A model generated the notes under the pieces. The model was not told the origin of the DNA. It did not search any database and saw only the letters and a program-made list of their open reading frames with translations. Made by a program: the position numbers and the translations under genes. 51,471 nucleotides of DNA from a virus: positions 1 through 51,471 of the IMG/VR virus record IMGVR_UViG_3300027899_000017; one strand, given 5' to 3'. Shown piece after piece: positions 12,078-48,681 of the stretch. Positions within the stretch are counted from its first letter, which is position 1. The number at the start of each line of letters is the position of its first letter.

Positions 12078-13853
12078 ATGGAAAATAAAGATGACCTTAA
12101 AGAAAAGAAAATCAGATACGAAGAAAAGAGAGATGTATTTGTAGCAGACTTTAACACGAAGATCACTGAGATAATCAAGAAGACTGATGAAGGTATCGCA
12201 GATTATACTAAAACTCGGGAGACAGCTATACAATTAAAAGATCCGATCGATCTCAAATTATCTAATCCAGAGGTTGAATTCAAAACAGTTGGAGAATTAT
12301 TTGCATGGGTGTATTATAAAGAAGGTTCTGAGCGTATTCCGTACGACTACACTTCTATAATTCTGCCATTATTAGTTGGGCGAGACGCATCTGATGAATC
12401 AAAAGCCGCTTATAAAACTTTACATAAGACATATCACGCGCAAAATCGAAAGAACTTTTATGAAGAGTTAAATAGGCTTGGAGGAGGACTTGCATGGTTT
12501 AAAGCATTTATGAGCTCTGCGCTCACACAGATGCGTCAAGTAAATCAGCGAGTTTCTGCATATGCCACGTTTGATGATTTTGAAGATGCATATAGTACGC
12601 TTAGTGAAAACATACCAGATAACCTAGATGGAAGACCTCAAGGGGTATTAGCTAACCTATACGCTGCATTTATTGAATATGATGATGCTCCAAAGAAGAG
12701 TGCAGAGAAACCTGCTGAATCTCCTGCTCCAGAGAGTACCGAGAAATCTGCTCCAATAAATGAGCCGCCGACATCGACTGCAGCATCATCGCAAGCCTCT
12801 TCAATAAATGAAGGAGAAAAAGGTAAGCCTTCTCCAGAAAAATCAGTAATAAACCCGAATCCGGTAAAACCTGCTGAGTCTGAAAACATTGAAAAGACTT
12901 CTGGCACAGTGGTTGCAGCAAATCCTACAATTCCAGTAGAAGCTAAGACGGACACCCAGCCTGCTCCAATAAATGTTGATGTCACTGTACCTGAACCACC
13001 AGCGGCTTCGCCAATAAATGTTACTGTACCTGAACAACAAGCGGCTTCACCAAGTGCAGCAACCTCATCAGTAATCAATGAATCTCCTGTAGTAAATCAA
13101 TCAGAGACCTCTGTCTCAAATACTTCAAATAGCCCAATAAATGTAGATGTTACTACAAATAATAGTACTGCATCAACCAATAGCTCAGAAGAGATAATAA
13201 ACAATATTCGACAGAGACTAGATAAAATAAAAGATTCAAAATCTACAGTAAATGATTTAAAAAATACATCTGTAAAAAATACAATATCTTCTGCTCTTTC
13301 TGATAAATCAGAATCCTCGGCTACTTCAAATACCTCAGATTCCTCTTCGGTAATCAATGAGAAAACTATTAATAAAACGATAAGTTCAGTATTGTCGCCT
13401 GAGGAAAAGAAAGTAAAATTAGAAGCTCTTAGAACTAGACTTGGACTAAATTCTGAGAAAATTACAAATTCAATTACCTCTAATATAACTTCTGAAAAAT
13501 CCTCTGAAGAGAAGAGCAATCTTGAAACTAACACAACTACACCGACTCTTCCAACTGAACCTTCTTCAACCGCATTAGAAGTAAGTAAAACTTCTCCAAT
13601 GTTTAGTGAAAAGACAAAAGAGAGCTCATTGAGTACTTCAGAAAAAACAAACATGTTAACTCAAGAAGCTAAGCCAGATGTAAGTTTAACTCCAGTAACA
13701 CAAGCAGCTCCTGCTGAATCGCCCACTAAATCTAACCAGATGTCAGAAACAGCAGCACCTTCAGTAAATATAGACATGGGCATGCTTGAGCAAAGATTAT
13801 CTAGAATTGAATATTTACTATCTGGCACACTAGATGTAAAAATTGTTAATTAA
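12078..13853 (+). CDS. Large low-complexity Ser/Thr/Pro-rich protein with several INE sites
   Basis: A 591-residue protein in three parts. Residues 1-200 are helical and charged and look folded. Residues ~205-560 are low complexity (Ser, Thr, Pro, Ala, Glu, Asn), with a repeated PINVDVTVPE-type unit (three related copies between about 295 and 360). The last ~30 residues are a helix (MLEQRLSRIEYLLSG). Four INE tripeptides occur, near residues 227, 243, 334 and 427, each after a hydrophobic or Ser/Pro residue, resembling the Leu/Ile-x-Glu cleavage pattern of T4-type prohead proteases. It may be an internal head or scaffold protein, or a spacer in a tail structure. No family recognised. Confidence 0.55.
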   Translation: MENKDDLKEKKIRYEEKRDVFVADFNTKITEIIKKTDEGIADYTKTRETAIQLKDPIDLKLSNPEVEFKTVGELFAWVYYKEGSERIPYDYTSIILPLLVGRDASDESKAAYKTLHKTYHAQNRKNFYEELNRLGGGLAWFKAFMSSALTQMRQVNQRVSAYATFDDFEDAYSTLSENIPDNLDGRPQGVLANLYAAFIEYDDAPKKSAEKPAESPAPESTEKSAPINEPPTSTAASSQASSINEGEKGKPSPEKSVINPNPVKPAESENIEKTSGTVVAANPTIPVEAKTDTQPAPINVDVTVPEPPAASPINVTVPEQQAASPSAATSSVINESPVVNQSETSVSNTSNSPINVDVTTNNSTASTNSSEEIINNIRQRLDKIKDSKSTVNDLKNTSVKNTISSALSDKSESSATSNTSDSSSVINEKTINKTISSVLSPEEKKVKLEALRTRLGLNSEKITNSITSNITSEKSSEEKSNLETNTTTPTLPTEPSSTALEVSKTSPMFSEKTKESSLSTSEKTNMLTQEAKPDVSLTPVTQAAPAESPTKSNQMSETAAPSVNIDMGMLEQRLSRIEYLLSGTLDVKIVN

Positions 13854-16910: not shown

Positions 16911-18506
16911 ATGAACGAATTCTTGCAAAGAATGCTAGGTGAACTTAAAACGAATTCTGCAGTGAATTCTGAGCCTCTAGTTAAGATGCTAGTTGAGTCA
17001 ACAGATAAATCTATCTTATTAGGAGAGAATACTGCATCAGTCTATTCTACTCTTAAAAATGGAATGTTTGCTATTGCTAAAAGTTCTAATAACTCAGCAC
17101 TTTCTATACTTGCGTCAAAGTTTGAAGAAAACGAAGCAACTCCAAATTCTAAAGTTGGTGCAATTGCATCTGAAGTTGGAATCTCTACTAAGTTGTCACA
17201 GATTAAAGAATCAAATGCGTATTCTAATCCTATAGTAAAAACTAAAGTTGATTCCTTCAGCTCAGCAATACTTAATGGAACTCCAGAATTTACACTATGT
17301 GCAGATTTTATCAATGTATTTGAAACATATAATTACGATTCAACAGTTAAGTCAGTAGTTTCTGGAGTATCTGATTATGTTTCTTCAAACCAAGGAAAAA
17401 TCTCAATGCTTAGCGCAATCTTTCAATTAGAATCAATGAATTCTCCAATCTATGCTGGAGCAGTTTCTGATCTAAAGAACATGTTAATTGAGAATGCATA
17501 TTCTGCAGATATTATTAAACTTAAATACGGTAACTCAATTCCATTGGTTACTTGGTTAGTTAATGATCTTAGAATTATTGAATCAAGAGAAAACGGAAGC
17601 TTTACACTAGGCGAAGGAAATTCGGACACTAGAGTAAATAATCTTATTGCTCCATCAATCCAAACTAAAAATGGAATGATCTTGTACACAGACAATCGTT
17701 TTATTTCAATCAGAGAATCTAAAAAGCTTGCCGGTAATGAAACGAAAGTTAATATCGACGGACCTTTTAAGATTGCAGAGGTTGATCCGAACTTCGTACG
17801 TGAAAATTATTCAACTTTCTATGAAGTATGTGAAGCATATGCTACACTAGGTTTCAATAAAAGTGCAGATGGTCTTGGCGTAGAATCTTCAAATGTTAGA
17901 AATTTTAAAGTAGGATTTAAGGTAAGTGAAGCAAAGTCACTAGACATATACATCAATAACTCTAAGATCGAATCTTTAGACTCAATTAATATTTCAGAAG
18001 CTCTTTCATTAGAACCAACTAATGTTAAGTTAAGATTTGCAAAACTATTTGAAAATTCTGGAACACTTGCTAATTTTGAGTTCATCAAAGAAGTATCAAA
18101 CGATAGATTAATGAGCGAAGCTCTTCTACTTAATCTAAATAACACATATTTTATCTGTGAAAAAGTAAATTCAGCAGATCGCGTTTGGACAGAAGTTAGT
18201 GAATATGCAATGTACGAATTCTTTAATTCTAAATTCCAGTATGATATTAGTCCAATCTTTAAAACAAAGATCGATGAGTCTCTACAAGTATTAAAGGATA
18301 TCGATTCAACTAAATCTAGAATCCTTTTAGATATCGAAAAGCTTGAAACTTCTATTAAGAAGATTGATGAAGCTTGTGAAACACAAGGAATAGATGCAAT
18401 TGAAGTGACCAGACTTGAGTCAATTAAAGATGCAATAAAAGAAACTATTTCTGGTTTGAACGAACAATATATCTCGACTGACCTCTTAAAAAAAACCTTA
18501 GCCTAA
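16911..18506 (+). CDS. Unknown 531-residue protein with a frameshift-prone end
   Basis: A 531-residue protein that begins MNEFLQRMLGELKTNS and is rich in Ser, Asn and Ala, with helical N- and C-terminal parts (the last 100 residues are charged helices) and a more strand-rich centre. It does not match a family I recognise; an internal head or core protein would suit its composition and its place at the end of the late block. Its last codons run into eight A (18488-18495), where an in-phase A AAA AAA heptamer would allow a -1 shift into a 78-codon frame ending at 18730. A GATAAATAAA motif lies before the start. Confidence 0.6.
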   Translation: MNEFLQRMLGELKTNSAVNSEPLVKMLVESTDKSILLGENTASVYSTLKNGMFAIAKSSNNSALSILASKFEENEATPNSKVGAIASEVGISTKLSQIKESNAYSNPIVKTKVDSFSSAILNGTPEFTLCADFINVFETYNYDSTVKSVVSGVSDYVSSNQGKISMLSAIFQLESMNSPIYAGAVSDLKNMLIENAYSADIIKLKYGNSIPLVTWLVNDLRIIESRENGSFTLGEGNSDTRVNNLIAPSIQTKNGMILYTDNRFISIRESKKLAGNETKVNIDGPFKIAEVDPNFVRENYSTFYEVCEAYATLGFNKSADGLGVESSNVRNFKVGFKVSEAKSLDIYINNSKIESLDSINISEALSLEPTNVKLRFAKLFENSGTLANFEFIKEVSNDRLMSEALLLNLNNTYFICEKVNSADRVWTEVSEYAMYEFFNSKFQYDISPIFKTKIDESLQVLKDIDSTKSRILLDIEKLETSIKKIDEACETQGIDAIEVTRLESIKDAIKETISGLNEQYISTDLLKKTLA

Positions 18507-18730
18507 ACGAATCTTCTTCTTTTAAAATAGGAGAAACCGTAAAAGCTAAAGGAAAGATTGGAAAGGTTACTGGGTACTTTGGAAATTCAAAAGAATACTT
18601 AGTAATTATTGGATTAAAGAACGAAAGATATCCTGAATCTGAAATTGAAAAGTTTACAGCTTCTGCTAGAAAAAAGGAGAATAAAGATATTACTCGTGAT
18701 AAAAAGCCAAAGGAGAAAACAGTTTTATAG
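18488..18730 (+). other. Candidate -1 frameshift site and extension frame
   Basis: In the zero frame the codons TTA AAA AAA ACC contain the heptamer A AAA AAA (18488-18494), and the zero frame stops at 18506. Slipping back one base gives 78 further codons (18494-18730) beginning NLSLNESSSFKIGETVKAKG. They hold a compact Gly/Val/Lys-rich domain similar in style to KOW or SH3-like folds and a Lys-rich tail. The extension frame has no ATG, GTG or TTG after its last upstream stop, so it cannot easily be a separate gene. The total would be 606 residues. A one-base error in the A run is the alternative. Confidence 0.6.
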
Positions 18731-18731
18731 T

Positions 18732-18761
18732 AAAAAGGAGCATTTTTGCTCCTTTTTTTTT
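18732..18761 (+). terminator. Rho-independent terminator
   Basis: An 11-bp perfect stem (18732-18742 with 18747-18757), a TTTT loop and a T tract reaching 18761. It lies directly after the TAG of the -1 extension frame, which supports that stop as the true end of the gene. Confidence 0.9.
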
Positions 18762-25117: not shown

Positions 25118-26191
25118 TTAAGCAGAAGGTGAATTAGGCGTGCCTAGTGCCTTTGAAAATGTATTAATAAATGACGCTGCTCTATCTTTTGCAGTGGGGG
25201 CTACACTAGCTGGAGCAACTACTGTGAAAATAGATTTCCCATCTTTATAGAAGAGCATCTTTTTAAGATTTTCAGCAGTTATTTCACCTGATTTATACTC
25301 AGCTTCATACTCATCGATTATCTTATTTCTAAATGCTTCATCAGTGAACATTTTTTCAAAGAAGGCTTTGTCCTGAACATTCGTAATTTCAGAATCAACA
25401 AAAAGCGGTAGACCTGAGGATTTTGAAATCTTAGTATTCGCAGAAGTAGCATCGTCTAGTGTTGTAGACCATAATACTTTTTTATTTGTAGCATCATATG
25501 AGATAGTACCATTAGGATCTGTATTGTCCTGTGTTTTTGCAACAATTGCACCAGCGTCATTAAATTCCATTAAGTATAACTTAGAATTAGTACGCATAGT
25601 ATACAAAAACTTCTTACCTCTGTCTTTTTTAGTTTCTTCAGTACCTTCCTCTTTTGCAGGAGTAGGTGCTGGCTCCTCTTCAGGCACAGGATCAACTAGT
25701 GTTGTTTGTTGAGCAGTTTGATTAAGCTGAGATACAATAGTTGGTGCTAAGTTTGAAAGAGATTCAAATGATTTTGCATCAATAAACTGAATTTCTGCAG
25801 GAATATTTGGATATGCTGGTTTTCCAGAAGCATCTAGTCTATTTTCAATAGAGAATTGAATTTTCTGTTTTGTTCTTCCTAGAATTTCACCGTCTCGCAA
25901 TACCGTGTAAACTATAAACTTCTTTTCAAAGAAGATTGAAGTAAGCTGTCCGATTGCTCTAGTAAATGGAACTTCGCCATTTACAAAATCAGTGATTGCT
26001 GCGATTCCATTTGGTGTTAATACATCATTTGAAATTACATCTAAATCATTAATAATTTTTACTATAAATTTAGTTGGTGACTGTACACGATAGGTAACTT
26101 TATGTCGTTTTCCAGCAGGATCAACCATTACGTCTTTTCCGGTAGCGATCGACTCGTTTACCTCTGACCATGAGCCAATTGACTTTATCAT
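25118..26191 (-). CDS. Tagged protein with a domain shared with the 636-residue protein at 39285-41195
   Basis: A 357-residue protein. The N-terminus MIKSIGSWSEVNE|S carries the putative capsid-targeting tag (Trp8, VNE at 11-13, Ser14). Residues ~40-100 (TKFIVKIINDLDVI...) are clearly related to residues ~42-100 of the protein at 39285-41195 (TSFKIKIVNDLDVI...), and the similarity continues weakly to ~140. A Pro/Glu-rich linker (PEEEPAPTPAKEEG) at ~168-190 separates this domain from a beta-rich second half. GATAAATAAA lies 25 bases before the start. Probably a packaged internal protein; enzymatic role unknown. Confidence 0.6.
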   Translation of the reverse strand: MIKSIGSWSEVNESIATGKDVMVDPAGKRHKVTYRVQSPTKFIVKIINDLDVISNDVLTPNGIAAITDFVNGEVPFTRAIGQLTSIFFEKKFIVYTVLRDGEILGRTKQKIQFSIENRLDASGKPAYPNIPAEIQFIDAKSFESLSNLAPTIVSQLNQTAQQTTLVDPVPEEEPAPTPAKEEGTEETKKDRGKKFLYTMRTNSKLYLMEFNDAGAIVAKTQDNTDPNGTISYDATNKKVLWSTTLDDATSANTKISKSSGLPLFVDSEITNVQDKAFFEKMFTDEAFRNKIIDEYEAEYKSGEITAENLKKMLFYKDGKSIFTVVAPASVAPTAKDRAASFINTFSKALGTPNSPSA

Positions 26192-26248: not shown

Positions 26249-27103
26249 GTGAGTCTTAAGAAATTTAAAGAGTACACACTAATGTACTCAAAGGATCCTA
26301 AAAATTTTGAAAAGAAGATAGCGTTTGCCTGTTCTGAAAATTATGGAGTAGATGTCTTTGAATTAATAAAGAGTCCATTTGATATTTCACCAGGACACGA
26401 TCAGAAACCCACGATTGTTTGGAATAATTTTGATTTTACTAGTCATAAACTCGACGAGCATTTACCGGGTTCATTTAATTCAAAAAACCTTCCTACGTTT
26501 GAAGAAGTATGTAACGAATTTTCTAGTGAGCCGTTTATTCCTAAGACAATTACAGATCGTACTGGAGTAAAGAAATTAAACTTTCCGATTATTGGCGTTA
26601 GTCAAGACTCTGAAGAATTCAAAACATATGGTAAATTTAAAAAGTCAGAAAAAAATTTCTCCAAGTTTAGAGAAAAAATAGTACCTACTACTAGATTTGA
26701 TGTGATTGCTTTTAAGGGAGAGCCTATCCACATGCAAGAGCGAATAAACAAGATTGGATTTGATGTAGACTCTTCTAAATTTAAGTATAGTAGTGTAATC
26801 GATTCAATTATCTCAAAAATAAGTGAAAGCTATCCCATTGATTTTTATCATGTCTCTCTACTTGAGTCAAAAGGAAATCTATACTTGGATTCGATTACTA
26901 ATTCATTACCGTTAAGTCCTTCACAGAGTATAAAAATGTATGAGGCAGCGTACCATAAGTGTTATGATGCAGCCTTGCCCAACTGGTTTAAAAAGCAACT
27001 ATTTGAAAAATATGTACAGCCATATTATAAAAATAGATATTTTGATTCTCTATTAATTAAACCGAAATATTCAATCAATTTTGAGAAATATGCCAATTCT
27101 TAA
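26249..27103 (+). CDS. Unknown protein, weakly ATP-grasp-like
   Basis: A 284-residue protein starting at GTG 26249 (MSLKKFKEYTLMYS), the start being set by the upstream motif. Residues ~110-145 (KLNFPIIGVSQDSEEFKTYGKFK) resemble the Pro-x-Ile/Val-x-Lys loop and following strand of ATP-grasp enzymes, and a strand near 165-175 and an Asp/Asn pair near 210 (LYLDSITN) could be metal sites. The usual basic residues are not clearly conserved, so this is tentative. If right, it could ligate peptides or modify a virion protein. It overlaps the Nudix gene by 14 bases. Confidence 0.5.
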   Translation: MSLKKFKEYTLMYSKDPKNFEKKIAFACSENYGVDVFELIKSPFDISPGHDQKPTIVWNNFDFTSHKLDEHLPGSFNSKNLPTFEEVCNEFSSEPFIPKTITDRTGVKKLNFPIIGVSQDSEEFKTYGKFKKSEKNFSKFREKIVPTTRFDVIAFKGEPIHMQERINKIGFDVDSSKFKYSSVIDSIISKISESYPIDFYHVSLLESKGNLYLDSITNSLPLSPSQSIKMYEAAYHKCYDAALPNWFKKQLFEKYVQPYYKNRYFDSLLIKPKYSINFEKYANS

Positions 27104-27593
27104 CTTTAACCAATATCTAAACGAAGGATATTCTGATATTAATATTGACCTAGATAAGAAGAGTACTGCAGGGGTTGCTATTTTATACAATAATAAAATA
27201 CTACTCGTGCATCCAACTAATTCTACTTGGAAGACAGGTACTTGTGGAATACCTAAGGGAGGTATTGAACCTGGAGAAGAACCTATTGAGGCAGCTATTC
27301 GTGAATTATTTGAAGAGACTGGAATTTCAGTAATGCGTAATCAGCTTAATACTTCACCTGAAATAGTCGATATGTACTCTTCTTCAGGAAAAGTAAATAA
27401 GCAGTTAATCTATTTTGTTTGTGAAATATCAGATCTTTCTGAAATTGGACTAGAGTCAGAAAAAATACCTAACTCTCAATTACAACTTAAGGAGGTAGAC
27501 TGGGCAAAATTTGTCGGTCCAGTTGAAGCCTACTCAATAACTACTAGATCACAACTTATTATATTAGATAGACACTTGATGATAAATAAATAA
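27090..27593 (+). CDS. Nudix hydrolase with an N-terminal capsid-targeting-like tag
   Basis: A 167-residue protein. I choose the ATG at 27090 over the TTG at 27081 because MPILNFNQYLNE|G then has the same layout as the other tagged proteins (Phe6, Tyr9, Glu12, Gly13). The full Nudix box GGIEPGEEPIEAAIRELFEE-TGI is present at about residues 57-79, with all catalytic Glu residues. Nudix enzymes hydrolyse nucleoside diphosphates linked to another moiety (X), such as dNTPs, NADH, ADP-ribose or RNA caps. As cargo carried in the head it could act on host nucleotides or RNA ends from the first moment of infection, which is inference. Confidence 0.85.
   Translation: MPILNFNQYLNEGYSDINIDLDKKSTAGVAILYNNKILLVHPTNSTWKTGTCGIPKGGIEPGEEPIEAAIRELFEETGISVMRNQLNTSPEIVDMYSSSGKVNKQLIYFVCEISDLSEIGLESEKIPNSQLQLKEVDWAKFVGPVEAYSITTRSQLIILDRHLMINK
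27581..27593 (+). promoter_or_regulatory. Late-like motif GATAAATAAATAA
   Basis: Begins 27 bases before the GTG at 27608 and overlaps the last codons of the Nudix gene. Confidence 0.5.
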
Positions 27594-30527: not shown

Positions 30528-30938
30528 ATGAAACTCTACACTTTTAATGAGTATACTAGCCTTAATGAAGGATTTAATGATAAAGTGAAAGAGGCAACTC
30601 GACTAAGTAAGAAACTACTTAGAGCAGTCAGGGCAGAGGGTCAAGAGACCCTTGATATGCTGCAGATTTTTGCTAGAGAATTGCGACACAGATTACATCT
30701 AGATTCAAGAGAAGATGAGCCAACTGACGAAGAGATTAGAAGTGCACTTGAACAGTTAAAACAAGTTCCAAAATTTGCTCCGTATGCAATAATACTCCTA
30801 GTTAGTCCTATTCCATTTGGATCATTATTCTATACTCTATTTGCACTTAAGCTAAGTAAATTAACCAATGGAAAGATTAATATTCTTCCAAAAACATTTC
30901 GTAAAGTATTTACCGAGTCTGTTAGATTTTCACCTTAA
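30528..30938 (+). CDS. LETM1-like membrane protein with a capsid-targeting-like tag
   Basis: A 136-residue protein. MKLYTFNEYTSLNE|G (Phe6, Tyr9, Glu14) fits the tag. The middle is charged helix, followed at ~85-130 by a hydrophobic segment (FAPYAIILLVSPIPFGSLFYT) and LPKTFRKVF, the layout of the LETM1 family, in which a membrane helix is followed by a Leu-Pro-x-x-Phe motif. LETM1 proteins act in mitochondrial ion exchange and relatives occur in bacteria. If packaged, it could insert in the host membrane at entry. Similarity is by motif and is moderate. Confidence 0.55.
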   Translation: MKLYTFNEYTSLNEGFNDKVKEATRLSKKLLRAVRAEGQETLDMLQIFARELRHRLHLDSREDEPTDEEIRSALEQLKQVPKFAPYAIILLVSPIPFGSLFYTLFALKLSKLTNGKINILPKTFRKVFTESVRFSP

Positions 30939-38301: not shown

Positions 38302-38340
38302 AAAAAAATGGGCCTTTCTAAAGGGCCCATTTTAATTTTA
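38302..38340. terminator. Bidirectional terminator between convergent genes
   Basis: A 10-bp stem (38305-38314 with 38324-38333) has A7 on its left and T4 plus a T-rich run on its right, so it can stop both strands. It lies between the thioesterase (+) and the tagged gene ending at 38338 (-). Confidence 0.85.
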
Positions 38341-39228
38341 TCTGCGAGTAGATGCTGCCCATGCGGCATTAGATAGTTCGACCATCCGTTCCATCAGATT
38401 TGGATACTTTTCGATATGCTCCAATAGTAAATTTCTAATCTCTTCGCCTATTCGTTTAGCTTCATCTCCTCGAGTACGTAGGATCTTTGCAGTATACTGT
38501 AAAAATTTAGTTACCTTATCTGCGAGTATAGTAAGATCATCACCAGATATTTTAGAATAGTCAATTGTGAATTCATCAAGTCTCTTTAGAAGAGTCCCTT
38601 TAAATGTATCAAGATTAATTTCATCGCGTTCAATCCTAGTTGAGTCTACCGCTCTTAGATAGTGGATAGTTAGAAGTGCCTCTGCAAGGCTATCCATAAA
38701 TGCCTTTGCATTTTTATCTGAATAGAAGGTATCACCTAATGTTTTTGAAATCATTAGATTTTCAATACCTGATTCAATACCTTCTAATATTGGAGTTACC
38801 TTCTTTGCATAGATGTCTCGTGAAATCGCCTCAGCAATTTCAGATTCAGAATATTTTGCAAGAAATTCTGGTGCCATGATCTCAAGTCTACCTGTTGGGT
38901 GATATACCTTTTTTCCAGACTCATCCTCTAGATAACCTTTAAGAAGAGTAGTGTAGCCATTTGACTTAATGACAGATTTTCCAGGAAGTTCTAATACTAG
39001 CTCCTCTTTGTTTCCTTCAAAATCTTCAAACTTATCATTAGGTATCACTAAGAAACCCGAAGGTCGAATGCTTGCCGTTGGAAAATACTTACGTACTGCT
39101 TGGGAAATATCGTTATTTACAGTGTCGATAGTAATAGTTGGCTCTGGTTTTAAAAAGAAGTTAAGATAGACTTCAGTTGTACCCTCAGATTCGTATAGTC
39201 TATTCCAATTAGTATAGTTAAGAAGCAT
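38338..39228 (-). CDS. Tagged hypothetical protein, candidate head cargo
   Basis: A 296-residue protein. MLLNYTNWNRLYE|S fits the tag (Trp8, Glu13). The body has beta strands in the first 130 residues and a helical second half (DEFTIDYSKISGDDLTILADK). No family recognised. It ends at the bidirectional terminator and lies 56 bases after the large tagged gene on the same strand, probably in one transcription unit. Confidence 0.6.
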   Translation of the reverse strand: MLLNYTNWNRLYESEGTTEVYLNFFLKPEPTITIDTVNNDISQAVRKYFPTASIRPSGFLVIPNDKFEDFEGNKEELVLELPGKSVIKSNGYTTLLKGYLEDESGKKVYHPTGRLEIMAPEFLAKYSESEIAEAISRDIYAKKVTPILEGIESGIENLMISKTLGDTFYSDKNAKAFMDSLAEALLTIHYLRAVDSTRIERDEINLDTFKGTLLKRLDEFTIDYSKISGDDLTILADKVTKFLQYTAKILRTRGDEAKRIGEEIRNLLLEHIEKYPNLMERMVELSNAAWAASTRR

Positions 39229-39284: not shown

Positions 39285-41195
39285 CTAGTACTTTCCGTAC
39301 TCTATCGTGAATGAGTTTGTCTTGTATTGTTCTTCATCATCGTCATCCTTTTCCCACTGCGCACGAAAGCTTTTTCCATCAGCATTTGTAGGTATGTTAT
39401 TGATAATCTTTGCACAAACGCCAACGTCATTCAAATTATCGCTTTCCATTTCATAATTTATTAGGTCAGCTATTCCTTTATAATCACCATCAGATAGTCT
39501 AACCACCTCCTTCTGTACTTCAAAGAATTGCGTTGTACTCACTATACGTCTAAGAGCGTTAGATAGTTTCTGAGGATTAGTGCCAGGGCCAGTTGCTGCG
39601 TCATAAATATTTTTTGCAATTGCGTTAGTCTCTTCTACAGTATAAGTAGCTGCCTCAGGTTTCGCCTCTTGAGCTTTTTCCGCTTTATCTGCATCTGGTT
39701 TAGTTGCACCATCTGTTCTTTTTAGCATGCCTGGGTCAATTACTTTTGCAGTCTTTGCTTTTGGAATGTACGCTTTGGATTTAGATTTTGCTGCATCTAC
39801 ATTAAATTTCTCAAATAGACTTCCATCTAATTTTAAATAACTTTCAGTGATCTTATCTGTGAGTAACTTATTGATAAGTTCTGCAGTAATTACAGAACCG
39901 TCCGTATCCTTTAGCTCAAATCCAGCCTTTGCCATTGCAACGATCTTCTCAGTAGTCTGTCCAAAGTCTCCGTCTGTTCCATATTTCTTAAACTTAATAT
40001 AAGTAGGGTCATCTGCAAGTACTAGTCCTAATTTATCAATCAATAATTGTTGAGCTTTGATTAATTCAGGATCTTTTTTAGCAACAACTCCTCGTACTAA
40101 ACCTTCTTTTGGAAGTTTAATATCTCCAGTAGTAAGTGCAGGTGCCTCAGCTACCACATCTCCAACTACTTTTATAAAGTCAGCAAGGTTGAACCCAGTA
40201 GGAAGACTTGTCGTTGCAACATCAACTGATTTTGTCGCAGGTTGATTTGCTGCAGGTGCCGGCGTCGGTGCTGGTGTCGGTGATAGAACACTAGTAGTTT
40301 GTTCAAAAATAGATCGACCATCGAGTCCTAGATAATATGCACGTTCATTTTTTGCAGTAGGCGCAGGAGCGGCCGACTTTTTAGTAAACATTGCGATCTT
40401 GTTCAATAGGTCTTGATTAACTTCTTCAAGAGGATCTCCGTATTTGTCTTCTAATTTAAACCCAGCAGCGAGTCCTTTAAGTAATGTGATTGATGAATCT
40501 CCAATTTTACCAGCCTTAAGTTCAGCTTTTACTTTTGGAAAAAATGGAAGTTTAGCAATTTCAGGAACTGCTCGTAAGCTAATAAACAGATCATCAACTA
40601 CTTTAAAAAGAGCTTGGTCGCTACCTAGTGTTTTTAAATTTTCAAAAGGTACTGGTTTTGTGATAGTATATCCAGCAGATTGTTCGGTTTTAGTGTCGGT
40701 AGCTGCAGGTACAGTAGTATCAACTTTTTTATCTTCAGCTTTCTTTGAAGCATCAGCTAAGATATTTGCAGCGGATGCATCTTTAATAAGTGCAGTTAAC
40801 TCTTCTTGCTTAACTGTCTGTACTGTTGCAGGAAGACCTGGAGCAGAAGTACGTGGCATGATAGTAAATGTAACAAGTTGTTTACGATCATTATCTTTAT
40901 TGATCGCATATATTACAAAGTTCTTAGTAAGATCATTTAGGCCAGGGTAATATGGTAACCATTTAGGTTGCGCTTTAATCCAGGTTAAAAGACTTGTCCA
41001 GCCACCTGCAGTTAATTTACCAGCGGCATCAATTACATCAAGGTCGTTAACGATCTTGATTTTAAAACTAGTTTCATCAACTGGGATACCTACAATTTTT
41101 TGACCGAATCCAGCAGTTTGTTTAGTTCTTCCTGGAAATTCTGCCTCGTTTAACTTTTGCCATTTTGCAAAATCTGAAATAATATAATTCGCCAT
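39285..41195 (-). CDS. Large tagged protein with PG-binding-like repeats
   Basis: A 636-residue protein. MANYIISDFAKWQKLNE|A (Phe9, Trp12, Glu17) is a clear tag. Residues ~42-140 are paralogous to the protein at 25118-26191. The middle is Ala/Pro/Lys-rich linker. Around residues 380-450, a segment with QQLLIDKLG, YGTDGDFGQTTEKIVAMAK and AGFELKDTDG resembles a degenerate PG_binding_1 domain, and a shorter related unit (AAGFKLEDKYGDPLEEV) lies near 240. Probably a packaged protein that touches peptidoglycan during entry. GATAAATAAA lies 24 bases before the start. Confidence 0.65.
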   Translation of the reverse strand: MANYIISDFAKWQKLNEAEFPGRTKQTAGFGQKIVGIPVDETSFKIKIVNDLDVIDAAGKLTAGGWTSLLTWIKAQPKWLPYYPGLNDLTKNFVIYAINKDNDRKQLVTFTIMPRTSAPGLPATVQTVKQEELTALIKDASAANILADASKKAEDKKVDTTVPAATDTKTEQSAGYTITKPVPFENLKTLGSDQALFKVVDDLFISLRAVPEIAKLPFFPKVKAELKAGKIGDSSITLLKGLAAGFKLEDKYGDPLEEVNQDLLNKIAMFTKKSAAPAPTAKNERAYYLGLDGRSIFEQTTSVLSPTPAPTPAPAANQPATKSVDVATTSLPTGFNLADFIKVVGDVVAEAPALTTGDIKLPKEGLVRGVVAKKDPELIKAQQLLIDKLGLVLADDPTYIKFKKYGTDGDFGQTTEKIVAMAKAGFELKDTDGSVITAELINKLLTDKITESYLKLDGSLFEKFNVDAAKSKSKAYIPKAKTAKVIDPGMLKRTDGATKPDADKAEKAQEAKPEAATYTVEETNAIAKNIYDAATGPGTNPQKLSNALRRIVSTTQFFEVQKEVVRLSDGDYKGIADLINYEMESDNLNDVGVCAKIINNIPTNADGKSFRAQWEKDDDDEEQYKTNSFTIEYGKY

Positions 41196-42820: not shown

Positions 42821-43140
42821 AAAAGCTACTTGTAATCTTAATCTTGTGCGTATCTGGTCTTTCAAGTAATGCACAAACCTCTCGTCATTCTAGAGACTTT
42901 GAAAAAAAGCAGAAGAGTAATCTAGTTATGGGTAGTGATACTGCAAAGTATTGGTATTTCAAAACTAAAACATACGTTCTTCGTGAACCTAAGACTGGAT
43001 ACGAATGGAGATCAACTATGCCACTTAAATGGAATAAATTAGAACAGTCTATTCCAGATGGCTCAGTAATTGTTAAATTAGAAAGTATTCAAGTAGACTC
43101 TTCTAAGAAATCTGAAGGTTTTCTATTCTTAGAAGATTAA
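42817..43140 (+). CDS. Secreted small protein
   Basis: A 107-residue protein with a Sec signal peptide (KKLLVILILCVSGLSSNAQ, predicted cut after Ala19 or Gln20). The mature part is basic and strand-rich, with several Lys and Trp/Tyr residues. It shares its leader with the gene at 44146, so the two are probably co-regulated and may act together in the periplasm or outside the cell. Its stop overlaps the convergent gene by 4 bases. Family unknown. Confidence 0.65.
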   Translation: MKKLLVILILCVSGLSSNAQTSRHSRDFEKKQKSNLVMGSDTAKYWYFKTKTYVLREPKTGYEWRSTMPLKWNKLEQSIPDGSVIVKLESIQVDSSKKSEGFLFLED

Positions 43141-44015
43141 ACAATCGCTGGAGTGGTTGAACTAGGTTTAGGTACACTCATCTCTTGATTCTTCTGATTC
43201 ATGTACTGCTTCACTAACACTTCATCCTGTCCCTGTTTTATACTAAAGATTTTAACGCGATACTTCATATCTCCTCTTCCAGGCGTGATTCCTATCTTCG
43301 GCCAGTGCTCAAATGTTGAACTATTCTCTCCGCCTAGATTGTTTGCAATGATCTTATATAAATTTTCAGGAGTATACAACTTTTCATTTTCTAAGTTACT
43401 TGTCAAGTAGTCATAGTTCTTCTGATCAATAATATTATTAACTCCGTGTGTTCCTTCAAAGGTAGTAGTTGCCCATCTTGCAACTAGATTAGCATTACCG
43501 GAATCGTATGCATACTTCATAATTACAAAATCTCTAACGAATGCAGTAGTTAATTCTTCAATCGTTACTTCAACACTGAAAAATTGTTCTGATGTAAATA
43601 ATTTCATTTTTTCACTATTTTGATCATTTAAATCTCCGTCAACATATGGAGTAGTTCCGATCGTTAGTTTCTTACTAATATTAATTTGAGGAATACCTAG
43701 TTCCTTCAAATGAGTCTCAACAATTTCCATCCGCTTTCTTGCTAATGAACCTTTCTCTTTGAATTCTTCTTGGTTAGGTATTTGTGACTCACCAGCACTT
43801 AAAACAATCTTAGTAATATAGTTTTTATCTTTTCTTTGAGATAACTTAGCTTTAAGATTATTAAGTTGTGTATCTAATGTATCTAAACCTTGTGCATCAG
43901 TTATCTTATAAAGACCTGGAGCAAAGACGATTTTAGCTGAAACTATCGGTTCAGCTGATGTACCAGTTTGCTCAAAGAGCGCTTTCCATTCTCCAAATTT
44001 TAATAAATACGACAT
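43137..44015 (-). CDS. Tagged protein with an OmpA-like domain
   Basis: A 292-residue protein. MSYLLKFGEWKALFE|Q (Phe7, Trp10, Glu15) is a clear tag, and its first six residues match the lysozyme-type protein at 27608. Residues ~65-115 (ITKIVLSAGESQIPNQ, then SLARKRMEIVETHLKELGI) follow the OmpA/MotB pattern, in which a strand-turn segment leads to an R-A-x-x-V-x-x-x-L helix that faces peptidoglycan. The C-terminus is Pro/Ser-rich. Packaged peptidoglycan-binding protein is the inferred role. GATAAATAAC lies 33 bases before the start. Confidence 0.6.
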   Translation of the reverse strand: MSYLLKFGEWKALFEQTGTSAEPIVSAKIVFAPGLYKITDAQGLDTLDTQLNNLKAKLSQRKDKNYITKIVLSAGESQIPNQEEFKEKGSLARKRMEIVETHLKELGIPQINISKKLTIGTTPYVDGDLNDQNSEKMKLFTSEQFFSVEVTIEELTTAFVRDFVIMKYAYDSGNANLVARWATTTFEGTHGVNNIIDQKNYDYLTSNLENEKLYTPENLYKIIANNLGGENSSTFEHWPKIGITPGRGDMKYRVKIFSIKQGQDEVLVKQYMNQKNQEMSVPKPSSTTPAIV

Positions 44016-44568: not shown

Positions 44569-45660
44569 TTATTCTTTAGCTAAAGTTTTTGGGTTGTATG
44601 TTGTTTTACCGGTGGCTGCTTGCCCAACTGGTGCTTGCCCTGGACCTTTAGGCTCGCTTATAAAAACGCTTTTTGCGAATTCAACAATCTCATTAAGAGT
44701 TATAGCATTTTTTGCATTTAATATAGTCGATTGACCTTGGCTTGCAAATCTATCTATGTATTGTTGGTCGACTCCAGAAAGTGCACTAGATAGTCCTTGA
44801 GGAAGATAGTTTGCCAGATTAGTTAATCCAGGATCGATAATTGAAGTCTTAAGACTTTTGCATATGTCTCTAAGTTTTAGAGTTGCGTGGTTTTCTCTAT
44901 CTGTAAGCAAATCTCTTCGTGAATATTTTCCATAGTGTTCGGACATTGCAGGATTGTCTGTTTTTTCTGGTGAATACTTTTTCGATGTTCCATCTTTCTT
45001 AATATAGAAACCAAATGGTGCAGTGTTTGCGAATGCTAATTTGAATGTGGTGGAATTATATCCCCATTTTTTTGATAATTCGGCAGATGTTGAGGGCTCA
45101 GTTATTGATACCATAAAATAATCCATGAGACCTCGTATCATACTTCGTATATTCGCTTCGTCTATTCTTAAGCTTTTAATTGATGCAAAATCATTATATG
45201 GTATAGGCACCTCAAACTTAAGAACAACTACTCCTGGTGTGATACTCCCCATTTGTTTAAATGCATCAAATACTCTAGTTAAGATCAAAGCTCCGTTTCC
45301 ACTAACTTGAATAATTTTACTCATATCTGCAGGTGTCCATGAAATAGGTAGACTTCCTCGCATAGTAAGAGACTCTCCACCAAACTTTATCTGATCACGA
45401 ACATTATCGTTTACTCTAGAAATAATCTTAGCATTCTGAAATTGACCAGCTTGTACTTGCGCAAGAGTTAATTCATATAGAGTTACACTAGTCTCGGTTG
45501 AATTTTCAGGTAAAGGAAATGCAAAAAGTTCATTTAATCGTTTGTCTCTGGCAGGAACAGTGGTTGTACCTGCAGTGATTAAGAAATTAATTGGAGTAGC
45601 TGACTGAGTTGATTGTTCAGTAAGTCTCTTAAATTTTGAATAGTTAACTAGATATGTCAT
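44569..45660 (-). CDS. Tagged protein, candidate head cargo
   Basis: A 363-residue protein. MTYLVNYSKFKRLTE|Q (Tyr7, Phe10, Glu15) fits the tag and shares the TYLxxY start with the OmpA-like and lysozyme-type proteins. The body is mixed, with a strand-rich first half and Lys/Tyr-rich middle (KKYSPEKTDNPAMSEHYGKY), then a Gln/Ser/Leu helix region. Family unknown. It starts 14 bases after the holin-like gene on the same strand, which suggests one transcription unit. Confidence 0.6.
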   Translation of the reverse strand: MTYLVNYSKFKRLTEQSTQSATPINFLITAGTTTVPARDKRLNELFAFPLPENSTETSVTLYELTLAQVQAGQFQNAKIISRVNDNVRDQIKFGGESLTMRGSLPISWTPADMSKIIQVSGNGALILTRVFDAFKQMGSITPGVVVLKFEVPIPYNDFASIKSLRIDEANIRSMIRGLMDYFMVSITEPSTSAELSKKWGYNSTTFKLAFANTAPFGFYIKKDGTSKKYSPEKTDNPAMSEHYGKYSRRDLLTDRENHATLKLRDICKSLKTSIIDPGLTNLANYLPQGLSSALSGVDQQYIDRFASQGQSTILNAKNAITLNEIVEFAKSVFISEPKGPGQAPVGQAATGKTTYNPKTLAKE

Positions 45661-46051: not shown

Positions 46052-46927
46052 ATGAGAGAAATTAGAATAGACAAGCGGCTTACTCAAAGATCATCAGCAA
46101 CTGATCGCTATTTTAGTGATGTAAATAAAAATGGCAAGCTTAGTACTAATGAAGAATTTGAAGTAGCTACAAGAGCCGCAGCTGGCGATGAATACGCAAT
46201 CAATCGACTTGTTTGTGCAAACTTAAGATTTGTAATATCTGTTGCAAAACAGTATAGTGCATCTCCAGACATGCTGCCTGAACTTATTGCTCAAGGAAAC
46301 ATTGGCTTAATTGATGCTGCCCGAACATTTGATCCTACCAGAGGATTTAAGTTTATATCGTATGCAGTATGGCATATTCGAAAGGAGATACTAAACTATT
46401 TCAATTGTTTATCAAAGACAGTTAGAATACCTATGCACGTTACTCGTGATCTCAATAGGATTAAAACCGCTGAACTTAATATACTTAATAGAGTGAATCG
46501 CGAAGCGACTGTTGATGAGATTATTGAAGAAGTTGCTAATCTAGGGTATAAGATAACGAGTGATCAAGTAAACCTAGTTAAATCATCAAGTGCAAAAACA
46601 ATTGCACTTGAGCCGACTGATATGGAACTTGACTACTCTCCAATCCAGTGGATTGACTCAGGAGAGTCTGCAAACTCTCAAGCGGAGGCAAATGACTTTG
46701 AAATAATAAAGAATATGGTATTTAGCTCTCTTTCACCAATTGAGAGAAATATTGTTGATCTTCGAATGGGAATGACTAGTGGTGATCCACAATCATTCCT
46801 AGCAATAGGTGGCATCTACAATAGAACTGGAGAGTGGGCAAGAACTGCATATACTAAAGCAATGCGAAAAGCAAAGGCTCGAGCAAAGAAAATAGGCTGG
46901 ACTCCAGAGAAAATATTAAACTGTTGA
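46052..46927 (+). CDS. Primary-type sigma factor, Bacteroidota RpoD-like
   Basis: A 291-residue sigma-70 protein, the usual length of Bacteroidota primary sigma. It begins MREIRIDKRLTQRSSATDRYF, like the MRQLKITKQVTNRES start of host RpoD in that phylum. Region 2 is at ~54-115 (CANLRFVISVAKQYSASP, LIAQGNIGLIDAARTFDPTRGFKFISYAVWHIRKEIL), region 3 at ~130-180 and region 4 at ~225-285. In region 4 the usual Arg-Glu-Arg-Val-Arg-Gln-Ile recognition helix is replaced by TGEWARTAYTKAM, so -35 binding should differ from the host's. It probably diverts core polymerase to phage promoters. The end overlaps the convergent tagged gene by 12 bases. Confidence 0.85.
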   Translation: MREIRIDKRLTQRSSATDRYFSDVNKNGKLSTNEEFEVATRAAAGDEYAINRLVCANLRFVISVAKQYSASPDMLPELIAQGNIGLIDAARTFDPTRGFKFISYAVWHIRKEILNYFNCLSKTVRIPMHVTRDLNRIKTAELNILNRVNREATVDEIIEEVANLGYKITSDQVNLVKSSSAKTIALEPTDMELDYSPIQWIDSGESANSQAEANDFEIIKNMVFSSLSPIERNIVDLRMGMTSGDPQSFLAIGGIYNRTGEWARTAYTKAMRKAKARAKKIGWTPEKILNC

Positions 46928-47266
46928 TTTAATAATTAGCTCGCCAACCGCTTCAATCTTTCCCATTACTTTTTGAAATGGTATCTGATCAGATTGGCTA
47001 AAGGCTTTAAGTATTTGTGCTAACTCCTTAGTGAGAGCCTTTAATTCTATTTTAGCAGCAGCTGGGTCAAATTTACCAGCTGCTGCCATTTTATAATAGG
47101 GTAGTTTTACTACAAAGTGATGATACGTAAGAAGAGAAGCACCTCCCTTTTCTTTAGCGGATTCTGCAATTTTAGTTGCTCCAGCCAATCGAGTCTTTGC
47201 AAATTCGATAAATAGGTCAACCTTTGCCTCTCCGATAAATTCTAGGTAAGTGTTTGCTCTTGACAT
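46916..47266 (-). CDS. Tagged small protein, closest to the T4 internal-protein start
   Basis: A 116-residue protein. MSRANTYLEFIGE|A (Tyr7, Phe10, Glu13) resembles the Lys-Thr-Tyr-Gln-Glu-Phe-Ile-x-Glu-Ala start of T4 internal protein III. The rest is helical and basic (FAKTRLAGATKIAESAKEKG), like small DNA-associated internal proteins. It overlaps the sigma gene by 12 bases at the 3' ends, and lies 5 bases after the next gene on its own strand. I infer a packaged internal protein. Confidence 0.65.
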   Translation of the reverse strand: MSRANTYLEFIGEAKVDLFIEFAKTRLAGATKIAESAKEKGGASLLTYHHFVVKLPYYKMAAAGKFDPAAAKIELKALTKELAQILKAFSQSDQIPFQKVMGKIEAVGELIIKSTV

Positions 47267-47271
47267 AGTTA

Positions 47272-48681
47272 TTAGTTTCTTTTGAATAATCTTAATCTAG
47301 GGATAACGATAGACTCACCAAGTAATCCTTCTAATCTCTTTACCTCTGCCATGTCGCCACGTTGGTATGCATCGATAATTGCATCGTGAATATCTCCAGT
47401 GTCCTCACTAGGTTCAAACTCTTGAGTAGGCATCTCCATCTCTTCAGGTTCGTATTCAGAATATTCAGAAGGTTCTGCGTAATAGTCATCAAGCTCCTTT
47501 TTAATAGCATCAATAATGCTTCTGGATTGACTCTTAGCCTGAGCAACAACTACACGTTGTTCATCATTAAGTTCAGAGTCTTTAAATCTAGAAAGTAGGA
47601 TTCCATTAAATAACTTTAGAAAAGCTCTCCATGGCATCTCCATCAATTTTCCAAAGAATCTAGCTCGTAGGTTATCGAAGTTATCCTCTTCAGAAAATTC
47701 ATTAATAAAATCACGAAGATCGGCTGCCATGTACGGACCATATCTAAGATCTTCAAGCTCATCTGCTAGAGTATCAGTATTCATGACAACTATTTCAGAT
47801 ACTTCAGAATTTTCTGGAATACCGACTGCAGCAATTAACTTATTTACTCCCTTTATTGCTTCATGTAGAAGCATTGCGAAATCACTACCTAGTGCATAAA
47901 TAGTAGGTGTAATCGTTTTAAAAAGTTCTTCTGCATCTTCGCTATCTGTAATGTCTTCACCATTTTCAATATCATCTAGAATCTTTTTAGCAAGTGCTTC
48001 TGCATCTTCGTCTGCCTTAGCTTCTTCCCAGTCTACTTTAACTGATCCTGCAAAACCATCACGACGTTTCCACATCTCCTTTTGCATTTCAATAGGAATT
48101 TGCCAGTCAAAGAAGCTTGCAATATTAGTAATATCAGTAAGTAGAGTAAGCATTCTATCGCCTTGCTCTTCACCAAAGATCTCAATTAATCCATTGGAGA
48201 CTTCTTCCATCTGTAAACAAAGTTTTGTATTCTTTGCTTCACCTTGAACAATATTATTTGCAATTTTTCCTTTTCTGATTTCACCAATTGTGTCCTCATC
48301 AGTAATTGGGTCGGCTTCCATAGGAGCTTCATCTGGCGTCTCTAACATCATCTCCTTCATTTCAAGGGCATCTGTTGGAATCCTTATGTCTAATTCAACA
48401 CCGTCTAGGATATTTCCAAAAAGAGAACGCACTGTTCTCTCTGCAAGCTCTTCAAGTTCACGCTCTTTACCTCGTTGAATCTCATGTGCTTCGCTAACAA
48501 ACTGCATAAATCTTCCAATCTTCTGCTGGTTTTGTGAAGCGAATGCACGGTTTTCTGCTCCAGCACGTCGTTCTACGTTTGCACGATAGTTTGGAGAGTC
48601 GTCTCCTTCACCAGGAAGTCCAATATTTCCTTCTAGACTTGCCTCATTTAGCCAGTCATTAAAATTACTTGGAACTCTCAT
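47272..48681 (-). CDS. Large acidic tagged protein
   Basis: A 469-residue protein. MRVPSNFNDWLNE|A (Phe7, Trp10, Glu13) fits the tag. A later segment, FMQFVSE|A near residue 63, could be a second cut site. The body is very acidic and helical (EEAKADEDAEALAKKILDDI), with a C-terminal Glu/Tyr/Pro-rich linker (EPSEYSEYEPEEMEM) and a final basic helix. Related style to the acidic core proteins of the T4 prohead, but far longer. It overlaps the 86-residue gene by 17 bases. Confidence 0.6.
   Translation of the reverse strand: MRVPSNFNDWLNEASLEGNIGLPGEGDDSPNYRANVERRAGAENRAFASQNQQKIGRFMQFVSEAHEIQRGKERELEELAERTVRSLFGNILDGVELDIRIPTDALEMKEMMLETPDEAPMEADPITDEDTIGEIRKGKIANNIVQGEAKNTKLCLQMEEVSNGLIEIFGEEQGDRMLTLLTDITNIASFFDWQIPIEMQKEMWKRRDGFAGSVKVDWEEAKADEDAEALAKKILDDIENGEDITDSEDAEELFKTITPTIYALGSDFAMLLHEAIKGVNKLIAAVGIPENSEVSEIVVMNTDTLADELEDLRYGPYMAADLRDFINEFSEEDNFDNLRARFFGKLMEMPWRAFLKLFNGILLSRFKDSELNDEQRVVVAQAKSQSRSIIDAIKKELDDYYAEPSEYSEYEPEEMEMPTQEFEPSEDTGDIHDAIIDAYQRGDMAEVKRLEGLLGESIVIPRLRLFKRN

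Follow-up and report, generated by a model that had tools for sequence, protein, structure and literature searches.

C-terminal domains added to a minority of copies of a phage protein by frameshifting are known from gene 10 of T7 and T3 and from the coat proteins of Lactobacillus phage A2 and Listeria phages A118 and A500 (PMC5009743). The tail assembly genes G and T of lambda are likewise joined by a -1 slip, a frameshift that is widely conserved among long-tailed phages, with the exception of T4 (PMC5009743). Slippage on runs of nine A's is described in Thermus dnaX, IS elements and Shigella spa13, where the products differ only past the run (PMC1088944; PMC5009743); the Thermus run gives about half slipped product, and in many bacterial genomes selection against slippage becomes visible at nine A or T (PMC1088944). 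The internal proteins of T4 carry a 10-residue N-terminal targeting peptide that is removed by gp21, which cuts after L/I-X-E (PMC9026906).

The locus considered here lies in the window, the whole stretch of 51,471 nucleotides of viral DNA that was analysed. It shares with the T7/T3 (10A/10B), A2 and A118/A500 systems a -1 slip near the gene end and a C-terminal domain on a minority of copies. It differs from those systems in that the carrier is not a recognised coat protein (the T7 gene 10B carrier being the major capsid protein), that slippage would take place on an A8/A9 run, and that the added domain is a predicted SH3/KOW-like barrel behind a predicted protease site. In lambda G/GT, too, a conserved -1 slip in a phage yields a minor fusion, but gene and position are different. 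Compared with the A9 transcriptional slippage systems, the run length is similar and the products again differ only past the run, but the window has A8 and the present case is known from sequence alone. The likeness to the T4 internal proteins lies in a sister group of phages, whose separate gene for the same domain begins with a targeting-like peptide ending in LKE or LNE, and in the presence of a Peptidase_S77; phages of the window's group lack such a peptide on the domain, which a frameshift fusion would carry instead. A limited open-access literature search found no report of a frameshift-made C-terminal domain in huge T4-like phages. We consider it very probable that a conserved, programmed -1 frame change yields a minor fusion, which would bring the barrel into the prohead, where it is then probably cut free.

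Baseplate wedge and terminase genes place the window, an IMG/VR contig, among huge T4-like phages. The best GenBank matches of the wedge protein are a 462-kb uncultured phage and Lak phages of Prevotella, followed by Flavobacterium, Sphingomonas and Tenacibaculum phages, and the host is likely a member of the Bacteroidota. The window gave no tRNA and no Rfam match.

The junction in the window and in its relatives

The zero frame ends CTC TTA AAA AAA ACC TTA GCC TAA, and the -1 frame continues as AAC CTT AGC CTA AAC GAA to a TAG at 18728-18730. The features of the locus are:

16911..18506, + strand: zero-frame ORF of 531 aa, of an uncharacterised family conserved in T4-like huge phages
18488..18495, + strand: slippery run A8, in phase as A_AAA_AAA (TTA AAA AAA ACC); A9 in all eight other distinct sequences
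18494..18730, + strand: -1 frame extension of 78 codons plus TAG, without a start codon; purifying selection in the -1 frame
18503..18511, + strand: Leu-Asn-Glu, predicted prohead-protease site, cut after Glu (alignment A6)
18504..18506, + strand: zero-frame stop TAA, 9 bases 3' of the A run; a TAA is also near the run in relatives
18521..18658, + strand: predicted SH3/KOW-like beta barrel of the extension, five strands
18732..18761, + strand: terminator-like hairpin and T run, 1 base past the -1 frame stop

What the sequence-only reading had claimed for this junction is borne out. The zero-frame end and the in-phase A AAA AAA are confirmed to the base, the run being exactly 8 A (18488-18495), and the 78 further codons and the two products of 531 and 606 residues are correct as lengths (528 + 78 for the slipped product). 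The extension was said to have no start of its own, and in the window the 12 codons that separate the domain from the preceding -1 stop indeed contain neither ATG, GTG or TTG nor a near-cognate start. The terminator claimed 1 base after the -1 stop is at the stated position, with a stem from 18732; shuffles yield about one such site in the 3-kb region, so the terminator scan alone is weak evidence. A AAAAGGAGCA...TGCTCC-like tail resembling the terminator region of the window is visible in the translations of two relatives (L083 and L101).

As a lone query, the 531-aa protein matched nothing in IMG/VR and the GenBank phages, and a reference-genome scan gave no relatives. Relatives were reached through the terminase gene (homologues in 17 records) and by profile searches (about 50 loci). 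Homologues of the gene come from about 50 viral contigs, and the junction was read in every one. Twelve contigs including the window, from several metagenomes, have the frameshift layout, in which the zero frame ends at A8 (window) or A9 (the others) and a homologous -1 extension follows. They amount to nine distinct sequences: the window, L083 (same contig as L108), L084 (likewise L109), L101, L104, L102 (junction identical to L103), L105 (identical to L106 and L132), L107 and L116. A TAA occurs 0-15 bases after the last A-containing codon of the run in every relative with this layout, and none of the nine sequences has ATG, GTG or TTG ahead of the domain in the -1 frame. A single open frame at the run, or relatives lacking the extension, had been named in advance as findings that would speak against frameshifting; no in-frame fusion at the run occurs (0/12 contigs), and the relatives with this layout, at 48-57% protein identity to the window, retain both run and extension.

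In a second group the domain is a separate gene with its own ATG or TTG (L111, L112, L117, L118, L121, L124, L143, L149). The third comprises contigs with no extension (L119, L120, L122), with a different downstream gene (L114, L115, L136) or with a single long frame and a charged C-terminal extension (L127, L130, L133-L135, L138, L141, L144, L145, L147). The A runs at the printed junctions of both groups are A2-A7. On a tree built from 37 proteins, a single change accounts for all nine frameshift rows, as it does in 86% of bootstrap trees (branch support 84/58). By this tree the frameshift rows are one group and the separate-gene phages their sister group; L143 and L149 were entered as 'other' despite their separate gene, which leaves the frameshift count unaffected. 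Directly 3' of the 531-aa homologue in L111, L115, L117, L118, L136, L143 and L149 there is an insert, a lipoprotein-like short ORF (MRLIIIILTVLILVSCTGSKK...) that is sometimes swapped for a larger protein (MTRKILTYDQF...GESLDLSWGS...). In several sister-group phages the short ORF separates the main gene from that of the barrel.

Bare runs of seven or more A's are not enriched in the window (30 found against 52 expected), and runs of A8 or longer are rare: 540 kb of coding DNA of the relatives holds 19, of which 18 are A8 (that of the window included) and one is A9. All nine distinct sequences with the frameshift layout have A8 or A9 at the junction. The excess over chance therefore lies in the conservation of the run at this place and not in bare A7+ frequency.

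Selection on the -1 frame and other origins of the layout

In close pairs, dN/dS of the extension is 0.08-0.47. Read in the -1 frame, L101 and L104 give a dS of 0.26 against a dN of 0.02, with 11 of their 14 differences at third positions, L102 and L105 a dS of 0.17 against a dN of 0.08, and L084 and L107 a pS of 0.83 against a pN of 0.27. By these ratios, purifying selection acts on the -1 reading of the extension as strongly as on the main gene. Outside the AAA AAA codons, synonymous conservation is not clearly raised around the site.

The alternative raised from the outset was a homopolymer error of sequencing or assembly in a gene that is truly one frame of 606-607 codons, and a single added A would indeed join both frames. 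Against this, all twelve contigs are one base short in the same sense, in ten named metagenomes plus the window, and the zero-frame stop is retained through different codons (e.g., AAG TAA in L101). Near-identical copies from independent assemblies agree on A9 (L102 = L103; L105 = L106 = L132), which excludes such an error for the group and makes it scarcely credible here. On/off phase variation was also considered and rejected, since it would give some in-frame copies and none exist among the contigs with this layout. The loss of both start and targeting peptide could suggest that the extension is a relic, in decay, of the separate gene found in the sister group, but purifying selection at main-gene level and retention of the extension over deep divergence leave this origin next to no probability.

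It is also highly unlikely, though somewhat less so, that the extension is made as an independent small protein by internal initiation or reinitiation. In the sister group the domain does have a gene to itself, and ATT, ATC or ATA codons are found in the -1 frame of several relatives; however, ATG, GTG or TTG precedes the domain in 0/9 sequences, the window has no near-cognate codon, L116 offers only AAG, and the A run is retained solely in sequences whose domain has no start. What the sequences show directly is the run, the -1 extension, the lack of an alternative start, the conservation in nine sequences and the selection; a -1 change at this site by one or other mechanism is strongly supported.

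Transcriptional or ribosomal slippage as possible mechanisms

Two mechanisms could change the frame. RNA polymerase may add an A on the A8/A9 run, giving rise to two mRNAs, to which we assign an even chance; or ribosomes may re-pair in the classic -1 manner on A_AAA_AAA or A_AAA_AAG, for which we put the chance a little below even. The run is exactly A9 in eight of the nine distinct sequences (A8 in the window) despite differing codon phase (phase 2 or 0), which argues for the polymerase. Nine A's are a known slippage length (PMC1088944), and unaided ribosomal slippage in E. coli reaches only about 0.3% on the best heptamers, V_VVA_AAG (PMC4066793). Downstream of the run, a fold scan covering structures without pseudoknots gave no fold better than shuffles and no consensus pairs, which also favours the transcriptional route and counts against the ribosomal one. 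Downstream RNA structure is present at most efficient ribosomal -1 sites and is not obligatory in bacteria. No SD-like element is visible by eye upstream of the run.

On the ribosomal side, the heptamer is in phase in 9/9 sequences, five of which have A_AAA_AAG, among the best slippery motifs in E. coli (PMC4066793), and a TAA lies within 15 bases in all nine; yet the run length is kept at nine, though seven suffice. Polymerase slippage meets its own difficulties, as the window has just A8 and the threshold length is that of other bacteria, from which the host's may differ. Moreover, the lysine patch before [LV]NE may be selected at protein level, in which case long A runs would arise anyway; a KKK-..-LNE pattern (KKKISLNE) is seen, too, in L196, an unrelated protein read in a single frame. 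Because A9 is found in two codon phases, no RNA structure was found and unaided ribosomal slippage is low, transcriptional slippage is slightly favoured.

A DNA pattern scan (run plus TAGNSTAAACGAA) recovered the known members together with unrelated marine-phage proteins, which mostly have an ATG of their own; the pattern thus lacks specificity. One such protein, KKxSRVNEAGNYTKPGMRKR...GGYK, has lysines followed by VNE and its own ATG in most cases (L178, L180, L182, L183, L185, L191, L193, L194, L197), which hints at a shared motif of basic patch and protease site.

Carrier protein, barrel and predicted cleavage

The AlphaFold2 model of the 531-aa protein (pLDDT 87.8) has a helical N-terminal half, a beta middle and C-terminal coiled-coil helices. 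No solved structure matches it at E<=0.001, and in BFVD it matches only uncharacterised phage proteins, including those of Tenacibaculum phages PTm1 and pT24. Searches of Pfam and PHROGs and by fold gave no match of known function, and these together with PDB sequence gave no capsid match; weak Pfam/PHROGs hits to CryBP1 and THOC7, below cut-off and within the coiled coil, were rejected. Distant homologues occur in Tenacibaculum phage pT24, a Lak phage and 630-kb phages. A pT24 protein named 'DNA ligase 1' (NC_049383.1 144057-146867, L177) matches the C-terminal half of the family by profile and fold, and its name is probably a wrong annotation. The 531-aa protein starts MK.FV..[IL]L[TS]E, which bears only a loose likeness to capsid-targeting sequences (CTS); L087 and L088 lack the E. 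From its partner domain and this weakly CTS-like start, our guess is that the carrier is an internal head or core protein. The UniProt entry A0A6J5PV39 (531 aa) ends at the zero-frame stop, and public records of the family thus lack a real domain.

The extension, described earlier as a compact Gly/Val domain, is predicted to be an SH3/KOW-like barrel. AlphaFold2 gives five strands with a core pLDDT of about 88, and the solved structures that Foldseek places nearest, every one with E above 0.001, are barrels of the KOW, Tudor and NusG types. Alignment A6 shows a domain of about 45 residues (consensus KFKIGDxVEVKGRIGKVTAING..YLVMIGxKNER) followed by a lysine-rich tail. Neither the extension nor the 531-aa part has a Pfam or PHROGs family, and a PDB sequence search gave only coiled-coil or KOW-like matches at chance level. 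The barrel is single-copy and confined to this place in the 6 records holding it, of 14 searched.

The protease pattern proposed ahead of the extension is found in relatives too, as [LV][NT]E (LNE, LTE or VNE in A6), with an invariant E and L or V two residues before it. Six of the nine distinct sequences have L-x-E; L083, L102 and L105 have VNE, so that a strict L/I-X-E does not hold in 3/9. A Peptidase_S77 (PF03420) prohead protease gene is present in the group, in G013, G034 and LR756500; L084, one of the frameshift sequences, comes from G013. The gene is known from these records of relatives, the window contig being a fragment. In the sister group, the separate gene begins MK.ILSY.[DE][FY]...SL[KN]E[SA]LDP, an aromatic-rich stretch ending in LKE or LNE and, in its sequence, resembling T4 capsid-targeting sequences.

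On the favoured reading of a programmed frame change, most copies of the protein would end at residue 531. In a fraction, either the polymerase adds one A on A8/A9 or ribosomes slip back one base on A_AAA_AAA, and the product would continue for 78 residues into the small barrel. The 531-aa part would bring the barrel into the prohead sub-stoichiometrically, where the prohead protease would cut after LNE and leave a free barrel inside the head. From the motif, the protease gene and the anatomy of the sister group, we infer the packaging in the head and the cleavage after LNE. Against the reading as a whole weigh VNE in three of the nine sequences, the lack of a conserved downstream RNA structure, the loose CTS of the carrier and its failure to match any protein of known function. 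The fusion would replace the separate capsid-targeted gene of the sister group, and such a replacement becomes testable because the same domain occurs in two arrangements among relatives. Somewhat short of an even chance, in our estimate, is the fuller proposal that the frameshift replaced the capsid-targeting peptide, that the protease frees the barrel and that the frequency of slippage sets its copy number in the virion.

CTS-like starts are enriched among the ORFs of the window, which counts in favour of packaging: they stand at the N-termini of 8 of 51 ORFs against 2% of internal stretches (P 7e-6, an optimistic value because the pattern was picked after viewing the N-termini), and P is 0.04 when plain [LIV][NT]E is tested. 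At the start of many ORFs lies a short peptide, rich in aromatic residues, that ends in [LIV]xE at residues 10-17, such as MTYLVNYSKFKRLTE and MRVPSNFNDWLNE: 25118-26191(-), 27090-27593(+), 30528-30938(+), 38338-39228(-), 39285-41195(-), 43137-44015(-), 44569-45660(-), 46916-47266(-) and 47272-48681(-). They are possibly a set of packaged or ejected proteins. The ORF at 12078-13853(+) encodes a Ser/Thr/Pro-rich protein of 591 aa with repeated INE motifs (SSINEGEK, SVINESP, SVINEKT), a recurrence that is not significant by shuffling (p 0.10).
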